Below the pieces are notes generated by a model that was not told where the DNA came from, ran no database searches, and was given only the letters and a program-made list of their open reading frames with translations. The translations under genes and the position numbers were made by a program. Source: a bacterium (lineage in GTDB: Bacteria > Planctomycetota > Planctomycetia > Planctomycetales > Planctomycetaceae). From it: a stretch of DNA of 37,738 nt. The stretch is from contig WGMU01000066.1 in assembly GCA_016124895.1 (NCBI GenBank), forward strand, positions 1-37,738, given 5' to 3'. Shown here in pieces: positions 33,318 to 35,259 of the stretch (its first letter is position 1; every line of letters starts with the position of its first letter).

Positions 33318-33887
33318 GTGAAACCCCGCATCCTTGTCCTCCCGCTGGCGGCTGCCCTGATCATCGCCGCCGTCGTCTGGAAACAGAGTCAGACCTACCC
33401 GCCGCCCGATCCGCGGCTGACCCGTTACGCGCTGCGGCCAGCTCCGTCGTTCGAGGCAACGGAAACGACAGAGACAGAATCGAGCGGTTTCTTCCGTCTC
33501 GAACGCTACCTCGGACGTCAGGCCCTGCTGCTGGTCTTCTTTGACGGCGAGGCCGGCGCGGAAGCCAGTCAAACACTGCAGCATCTGCGGTCTCACGCAG
33601 ACCAGATCAGAAAGCGTGGCATTATGGTGGTTGCGGTCAGTTCCGCACTGCCGCAGCAGAACGAGAAACTCGAATTCCCCGATTCATTCAGGTTTGTGAC
33701 CGATCTGCCGCCGATCTGGTCCGCTCACCGCCGCTGGAACAGTTTTGACGAAGCGAACGAGAAGCCGATTGAAAACGTCTTCTTCATTAACCGGGCCGGC
33801 CATGTGACGGTTGAAGACGGTCTGCCAGTACCGCTTGATAATTCGGCGTCGGAGATTGACCGTGTGCTCGGCATCGAAGGGCATTGA
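33318..33887 (+). CDS. Membrane-anchored redoxin-fold protein without cysteines
   Basis: A 189-residue protein started at GTG 33318, with GGA nine bases upstream; the open frame goes back to 33081, but that part overlaps the divergent leader and looks non-coding. A single hydrophobic segment at about residues 4-22 (RILVLPLAAALIIAAVVW) anchors it, with the body outside. The body follows the thioredoxin/AhpC-TSA fold: APSFEA, then FRLERYLGRQALLLVFFDGEAGAEASQTLQHL, IMVVAVSSAL, FRFVTDLPPIWSAHRRW and ENVFFINRAGHVTVEDG. The place of the peroxidatic Cys is occupied by DGEAGAEAS, and the whole protein has no cysteine, so it cannot do thiol redox chemistry. It ends 35 bases before the kinase start, so the two are probably cotranscribed. 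Confidence 0.7.
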   Translation: MKPRILVLPLAAALIIAAVVWKQSQTYPPPDPRLTRYALRPAPSFEATETTETESSGFFRLERYLGRQALLLVFFDGEAGAEASQTLQHLRSHADQIRKRGIMVVAVSSALPQQNEKLEFPDSFRFVTDLPPIWSAHRRWNSFDEANEKPIENVFFINRAGHVTVEDGLPVPLDNSASEIDRVLGIEGH

Positions 33888-33922
33888 TTGACCTGCCACG
33901 TTGCCATCGAACGGAGTCTGTG

Positions 33923-35044
33923 ATGAAACAAAGTAACGATGCCCTGCGGCTGCTCGGCGCGTATGACTCGTTGCTCGGCCGCGGGCGCATGGAATGGAGC
34001 GCGTCGCGGGACTTCGAACGGCAGATCGGGGCCGGTGGTCAGGGAGCGGTCTTCCTGAGTCATCGTTCGGGCTCGGCAGGGTTCCAGTTGCCAGTCGCTC
34101 TGAAACTGTTCTCGCCCGAACCTTACGAAAGCCGTGATGCGTACCGGCGGGAAATGCAGCGGATCACAGGCGTCGCCTCGACCGTCGCCCACATTCAGCA
34201 CGACAATCTGGTCGATGTCCACAACGTCTGGGAGGTCGACGGCATCTCGCTGATGGAGATGGAATGGGTCGACGGTTACGACCTGCGCTGCCTGCTGACT
34301 CCGGATTCGCTGCAGCAGATTCAGCAGCGGGCGACACGGCGTCGCTGGACGCGGCTCAACGAGCACATCGTCACTGCCGGCGGCACTCAGCCACGCGTCA
34401 AACCAGCGCTGGCGATCGCGATCATCCGCGCCTGTCTGGCCGGGCTCTCAGCGCTGCATCGCAACGGGATCGTGCATAACGACCTCAAGCCATCGAACAT
34501 CATGCTCAAACGCAGCGGCAGCGTAAAACTGATCGATATCGGTTCCGCACTGTCGCTGGACGACGTCCCGGAAGAGATTCCCTGCACGCCCGAGTACGCC
34601 GCGCCGGAAGTCCTGGAAGGCGAGTCCGCATCGCCCCAGACGGACCTGGCAAGCCTGGGCTACATCCTGCTGGAAGTGCTTTCGGGCACACATCCCTTCG
34701 GTGGAATGCGGTACGCCCGGCTGCTGACTGCAAAGAAGGGCATCCTCGACGAACTGCCCCGCTACCTGCCGCCAGAGGAGTTCGCGTACTCGGACCTGCT
34801 GATTCCACTGTTGCGGCGTCTGGTCAATCCAGATCCGTCCTGCCGGTTCTCCACCGCCGACGAAGCACGACTCTCTGAGGAAGGCGTCCTGGCCATCGAA
34901 CAGGAACTCGTGAAGAGCGACCTGTCGAGCACGTACGAAAAAGACATCCGCGACTGGATGCTGGAGGTCGACGCCGATACCAGCCAGTCACTGCCGCAGG
35001 ACGAAATGGAAACCACCATTCCGCGACCGGCGCTGGAGTCCTGA
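33923..35044 (+). CDS. Serine/threonine protein kinase, soluble, atypical motifs
   Basis: A 373-residue protein kinase. ATG 33923 has GGAG six bases upstream and is preferred over the in-frame ATG at 33884. The catalytic parts are present: Gly loop GAGGQGAVF (36-44), Lys61 in VALKLF, catalytic loop HNDLKPSN (185-192), metal-binding Asp205 in LIDIGSA, YAAPE (225-229), and Asp241 of the F helix. HRD reads HND and DFG reads DIG. The essential Lys, both Asp and Asn are retained, so activity is likely. There is no membrane segment and no extra sensor domain, unlike most planctomycete PknB relatives, and the segment 125-160 is an insertion. The upstream redoxin-like membrane protein is a possible partner. 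The stop codon abuts the MITE-like element. Confidence 0.9.
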   Translation: MKQSNDALRLLGAYDSLLGRGRMEWSASRDFERQIGAGGQGAVFLSHRSGSAGFQLPVALKLFSPEPYESRDAYRREMQRITGVASTVAHIQHDNLVDVHNVWEVDGISLMEMEWVDGYDLRCLLTPDSLQQIQQRATRRRWTRLNEHIVTAGGTQPRVKPALAIAIIRACLAGLSALHRNGIVHNDLKPSNIMLKRSGSVKLIDIGSALSLDDVPEEIPCTPEYAAPEVLEGESASPQTDLASLGYILLEVLSGTHPFGGMRYARLLTAKKGILDELPRYLPPEEFAYSDLLIPLLRRLVNPDPSCRFSTADEARLSEEGVLAIEQELVKSDLSSTYEKDIRDWMLEVDADTSQSLPQDEMETTIPRPALES

Positions 35045-35172
35045 TTGGACAGCGCCACTTTGACGCCGGAGACGAGAATACAAGCACGACGCGCAAGCGA
35101 GTGTATTTGACGTAACGGATTCACTCACTTGCGCTTCGTACTCGTACGGCAACTGAAAGTGGCGCTGTCCAA
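35045..35172. mobile_element. 128-bp MITE-like palindromic element with CTGA flanks
   Basis: TTGGACAGCGCCACTTT (35045-35061) and its exact inverse complement (35156-35172) are 17-bp terminal inverted repeats. A second inverted pair lies inside: GCGCAAGCGAGTG (35091-35103) and CACTCACTTGCGC (35122-35134), 12 of 13 paired. Bases CTGA at 35041-35044 and CTGA at 35173-35176 flank the element and look like a 4-bp target duplication. The element has no open frame, so it would need a transposase from elsewhere. The left CTGA includes the kinase stop codon TGA. Confidence 0.7.
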
Positions 35173-35180
35173 CTGAAGAA

Positions 35181-35259
35181 CTCACGCGAAGCCGCTCAGA
35201 CGCGAGGCCAGAAAGAAGCGCTGCGTTTCTTTCTTCGCGTCTGAGCGACTTCGCGTGAG
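35181..35259. repeat. 79-nt near-perfect hairpin between converging genes
   Basis: The 25-nt arm 35181-35205 (starting CTCACGCGAAG) pairs with 35235-35259 (ending CTTCGCGTGAG) at 24 of 25 positions. The inside continues with AGAAAGAA paired to TTCTTTCT around a short GCGCTGCG-type loop. It lies between the converging kinase and malate dehydrogenase genes, so a two-way terminator is likely, though the arms are longer than a terminator needs. Confidence 0.75.

Follow-up and report, generated by a model that had tools for sequence, protein, structure and literature searches.

Insertion sequences (IS) of the IS701 family are given, in the excerpts of PMC2266710 used here, as elements of 1400–1550 bp with 4-bp target duplications and ends of the form ---YACT-Y--YR, a consensus stated there not to represent the entire family. 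Short, geneless elements with IS-like ends are exemplified by MITEPye1 (excerpts of PMC11578231), which shares its terminal inverted repeats with an IS1182-family element, has direct repeats and a long hairpin, lies mostly between genes and is present in 1–3 copies per chromosome. QMITE2 of Coxiella occupies mainly 3′ untranslated regions and its truncated copies resemble REPs (excerpts of PMC10969869), while REPs and REPINs are dispersed palindromes with conserved arms and a variable loop (excerpts of PMC3733652). Neither an IS701-linked MITE nor the family reported below is described in the excerpts used of PMC2266710, PMC3733652, PMC10969869, PMC9208149, PMC10586675 and PMC11578231, ISfinder not being covered.

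The element studied here resembles the IS701 family in its 4-bp duplications, and its 17-bp ends are those of IS701-type elements in its own genome (G000) and in a genome of a second genus (G007). It differs from them in having no transposase, in measuring 128 bp as against about 1.1–1.6 kb, and in a subterminal sequence that is not demonstrably IS-derived. With MITEPye1, it shares the small size, the lack of genes, the IS-shared terminal repeats, the direct repeats, the long hairpin and the mostly intergenic location; what sets it apart is the IS701-type of its ends, the YTAR target, a copy number in the tens and an inner palindrome that can also occur free of such ends. The likeness to REPs and REPINs concerns this inner part alone, which travels inside DDE-type ends and for which no tyrosine transposase link was found. 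QMITE2 belongs to another family; in the present case, the stop codon is part of the target motif. In kind, the MITE family is ordinary, and as a family it is new as far as the literature searches reach. We are highly confident of the overall explanation, i.e., a MITE with 17-bp ends mobilised by an IS701-family transposase at YTAR-like sites, for which stop codons serve as landing sites.

The element at a kinase stop codon and its copies

The window, a stretch of 37,738 nucleotides, contains the element at positions 35045–35172 (+ strand). A reading made from the sequence alone had described a 128-bp segment that is bordered left and right by CTGA and has perfect 17-bp inverted ends, a nested inverted pair and a left flank carrying the stop codon of a kinase gene, all of which was borne out. 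The terminal inverted repeats (35045–35061 on the + strand and 35156–35172 on the − strand), located by repeat search and direct reading, are 100% complementary over 17 nt (17/17) with 94 nt between them, and the two copies of CTGA, likewise read directly, occupy 35041–35044 and 35173–35176. Arm comparison placed the inner palindrome, the cargo module found solo in three relatives, at 35079–35103 (left arm, −) and 35122–35146 (right arm, +), with 1 and 3 mismatches to the family arm. The host ORF (33884–35044, + strand), which matches Pfam PF00069 (protein kinase; E 6.3e-34), ends with the TGA of the left CTGA; its start is uncertain, our codon-usage caller favouring 33923. The + strand of the element has a folding energy of −70.7 kcal/mol, shuffled versions averaging −37.2 (z −10.4), and the other strand has a z of −12.1. 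At gathering score, Rfam gave 0 matches within the window. A second hairpin (35181–35259; 34-nt arms, 88% complementary, 11-nt loop) separates the kinase gene from the lactate/malate dehydrogenase-like gene that converges with it; no other full-length copy occurs in the sequences compared, and it is perhaps a two-way terminator.

Against G000, the genome that the window comes from (8.13 Mb in 195 contigs), BLAST yielded at least 40 distinct strong matches to the element (40 of 86 candidates were scored), and the terminal 17-mer, at up to 2 mismatches, occurs 55 + 51 times as opposed to 1 + 0 for its reversed control. These genome-wide searches, which bear on the earlier suggestion that further copies should exist, uncovered dozens of them: 53 copies in the extracted loci have both ends, a lower bound since the loci were picked by similarity, and 40 of these 53 measure exactly 128 bp. 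Single-ended or rearranged copies (e.g., C30:9778, C62:14932, C75:30341 and C152:67020) stand outside this set; in the one at C62:14932, ACTC repeats stand in a row where the inner right half would be. Two end matches, C13:39817 and C52:282761, were read as chance.

The 4-bp flanks are identical in 29 of the 53 copies, differ by one base in 16 and at two to four positions in eight. Among the 29 identical pairs, 22 conform to YTAR (9 CTAA, 9 TTAG, 4 TTAA), the other seven being CTGA (the window copy), GTAG, TCAG, GTAA, CGAC, CGAA and ATCG. The copies on contigs C150 and C174 have the same sequence and are flanked by TTAG and TTAA, respectively.

An empty counterpart was found for the copy at C34:100340 in a check within its own genome: the joined flanks minus one 4-bp copy align to C13:397–495 with 87/99 identical positions and 0 gaps, and the occupied TTAG...TTAG corresponds to a single TTAC, so that this paralogous site is one base off the duplication. 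It thus has one 4-bp target without a gap, as the sequence-only reading expected, and no contrary empty site was found. Three further candidate pairs were not used: L023 versus L073, L023 versus L091 (a gapped match of low identity) and L026 versus L041 (a MITE beside a MITE). In G001, of the same genus, the kinase orthologue (84% over 1034 bp) has its own TAG stop and no element behind it; the sequence beyond that stop is not convincingly alignable to the right flank in the window. Transposition, previously only inferred from a single copy, is now backed by the 53 dispersed copies (the equal pair on C150 and C174 among them), the 29 identical flank pairs, the paralogous empty site and the element-free orthologue. 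Short and non-coding, with terminal inverted repeats, many dispersed copies and target duplications, the segment 35045–35172 belongs to a genuine MITE family.

IS701-type ends and the putative mover

Three contigs of G000 (C117, C132 and C180) end inside a longer element, the left end of which is 16/17 identical to the MITE end, and a fourth (C123) ends inside an element with a right end 17/17 identical to it; CTAA or TTAG stands outside all four ends. The partial ORF on C123 matches the IS701 transposase model NF033540 of NCBIfam (E 7.3e-18; 65 bits, the curated cut-off being 150). A deleted IS of 1127 bp in G007 has 17/17 ends on both sides, and its ORFs, each partial and with single scores below the 150-bit cut-off, match NF033540 at E 8.2e-13 and 2e-19. 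The left fragment from G000 aligns to bases 1–169 of this IS (80%) and the right fragment to bases 1127–450 (78–83%); as both align to one deleted IS, the left and right ends in G000 are most probably parts of a single type of IS701 element, which was broken in assembly.

A relative in G006 is, at 1643 bp, longer than the 1400–1550 bp listed in the PMC2266710 excerpts, and its ends are related to those of the MITE with 4 and 3 mismatches. Two overlapping ORFs, each partial, jointly span the IS701 model, matching NF033540 at E 3.4e-40 and 2.2e-41 with single scores below the 150-bit cut-off. This split of the transposase into ORFs of 181 and 336 aa (L173:262–1730, from contig C510) may reflect a frameshift mutation or a programmed frameshift.

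The G000 assembly has no intact IS701 transposase gene with such ends, only fragments, most of them at contig ends; the two places with Pfam DDE_5 in that genome both lack these 17-bp ends, and no such end pair (mismatches up to 5) accompanies the full-length IS701 relatives in G008, G022, G034 and G035. The TTGGACAG end does not fit the published IS701 consensus, which PMC2266710 itself does not claim for the whole family. Beyond the 17 bp, subterminal similarity of MITE and IS was not significant (lowest p 0.077 of 24 comparisons), and the idea that the MITE is an internal-deletion derivative of the IS was dropped for that reason. The sequence-only reading had no named family for the element; its ends are now matched to those of an IS701-family IS in the same genome. 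Judged from these shared ends, the MITE was most likely moved by the transposase of an IS701-family IS.

The terminal 17-mer (up to 2 mismatches) is present in 27 of 40 genomes, the window's own included, and is abundant only in G000, G015 (32 + 41) and G006 (11 + 16), its counts elsewhere being close to those of the reversed control. Matches to the window element (E up to 1e-6) were obtained in three of eight chosen relatives (G001, G007 and G011) and mostly cover the inner palindrome alone. At the same threshold there are none in G006 and G015; as the element itself is absent there, the ends in these two genomes enclose other DNA. YTAR stands outside 10 of 24 end matches in the G006 loci, an uncurated set. 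At three loci of G006 (L144, L152 and L157), opposed related ends lie ~320–420 bp apart, possibly marking further MITE families with IS701-type ends.

Stop codons as landing sites

Since YTAR contains TAA or TAG, gene stops are among the few YTAR sites in a genome of 60% GC: we counted 378 such sites in 437,738 background bases. Eighteen of the 53 copies sit exactly on a called gene stop, so the overlap is not peculiar to the window copy; 32 others lie between genes and three in coding sequence. Genes were called with our own simple codon-usage caller, the calls covering 79% of the background. A matched test set 3-kb windows round background YTAR sites against 37 copies in which one or both flanks read YTAR, each copy being represented by its flanks joined together. 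For copies with two unlike flanks we used the YTAR one, a choice that may bias the test towards stops.

At a setting of 40 codons and score 10, coding sequence accommodates one of the 37 copies versus 170 of 324 background YTAR sites. Among non-coding sites, 12 of 36 copies are on a stop versus 19 of 154 in the background (Fisher one-sided 0.004), the p value ranging from 0.0005 to 0.007 over five caller settings. When only the 22 YTAR copies whose two flanks agree were considered, the excess at stops was not significant (4 of 21 non-coding copies, one-sided p 0.29), nor was it at the laxest setting (6 of 21, p 0.06). The enrichment at stops is moderate and a true preference for them is not established; we read the pattern as target choice combined with purifying selection.

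Mechanistically, the IS701 transposase would recognise the 17-bp ends common to IS and MITE and make cuts staggered by 4 bases at YTAR-like target sites; the 4-bp duplication would then arise by gap repair. An insertion at a stop codon would duplicate the stop, spare the gene and put a strong hairpin directly behind it; in the window copy, the near match CTGA, with its TGA, would have been used instead of YTAR. We infer the IS701 transposase as the mover, and with it a possible present activity of the family and a possible influence of the hairpin on the transcript.

The inner palindrome and rival explanations

The inner palindrome occurs solo in 17 places: seven in G001, seven in G011 and three in G007. 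Within 60 bp of each of the 17, even the closest approach to the 17-bp end shows 7–10 mismatches, the level of random windows. G007 also holds a composite MITE copy with 4 and 1 end mismatches. Of 392 sampled genomes from the phylum, to which G001, G007 and G011 did not belong, three contained the palindrome arm at up to 2 mismatches: G000 (56 + 56), G324 (49 + 51) and G025 (3 + 5). The 18 loci inspected in G324 and G025 show mostly a single arm or same-direction repeats. The ~100 arm matches of G324 (loci L118–L143) lie in one chromosome, several after a similar GC-rich repeat, and would represent a dispersed repeat family of their own. In the extracted G000 loci, arms that are not part of the 53 copies were met at three loci, next to additional copies that are truncated or rearranged, and 400 kb of background contained one weak arm pair without 17-bp ends.

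Conversely, the ends enclose other interiors. At C40:18458–18586 (L041), these 17-bp ends, with a TTAG duplication, surround another palindrome that resembles the common one at its centre; the 183-bp relative at C71:19593–19775 (L043) carries one palindrome arm three times in tandem between its ends and TTAA on both sides; and on contig C66, the ends frame a 165-bp interior without arms. As the palindrome occurs solo and the ends enclose other DNA, ends and interior are separable.

One alternative is that the element is mainly a REP/REPIN-like palindrome moved by a tyrosine transposase, its outer repeats being incidental. The arms of REPINs are conserved and their loop varies, which the inner palindrome recalls, and its dispersal alone over 17 places in G001, G011 and G007 would agree with such an origin. 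In G000, the unit duplicated with 4-bp repeats nevertheless ends at the outer 17 bp and not at the palindrome. The RAYT domain PF01797 does not track the palindrome among 16 genomes: it is present in 15 of them, several of which yielded no palindrome, and absent from the palindrome-bearing G011 (79% complete). We give this origin hardly any chance. A transposase of another family with similar ends, its likeness to IS701 being coincidental, is very unlikely as well. It would fit the missing intact IS701 gene in the G000 assembly and the unshared subterminal sequence, but MITE and IS701 fragments have the same 17-bp ends and the same YTAR flanks in the same genome, and G007, of a second genus, holds an IS701 element with identical ends plus the composite MITE.

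The strong fold of both strands straight after a stop codon might also suggest a structured RNA or a terminator of the kinase gene rather than a mobile element, a notion whose probability we put next to nil. The dozens of dispersed copies with duplications refute it as an origin, the G001 orthologue does without the element, and a structured RNA is further contradicted by the lack of an Rfam match in the window and by the 50 MITE cores, which covary no more than shuffles do (five double-substitution cells versus a shuffle mean of 13.8). The 17 solo cores have 13 such cells, a number reached by 2 of 1000 shuffles; this signal partly tracks the genome of origin and is inseparable from relatedness. 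A secondary role at mRNA 3′ ends may exist beside the mobile origin. The end hexamers loosely resemble the integron attC core, but their orientation is wrong for an attC site, and that reading was dropped.

Within the preferred explanation, a MITE moved by an IS701-family transposase, the IS701-type ends may even be an interchangeable shell that captures free planctomycete palindromes and delivers them to stops. This extension, for which capture is a prediction, we advance tentatively and consider rather unlikely; it is favoured by the solo palindromes in three genomes, the composite element in two genera, the different palindrome on C40 and the overlap of YTAR with stops.

These results put on record a planctomycete MITE family that has IS701-type ends, and they suggest a simple route to transposon harmlessness: a target motif containing stop codons. 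If the extension is true, one transposase would distribute hairpins over the 3′ ends of host transcripts while leaving the genes intact. The separable palindrome lets one ask whether mobile ends recruit pre-existing hairpins.
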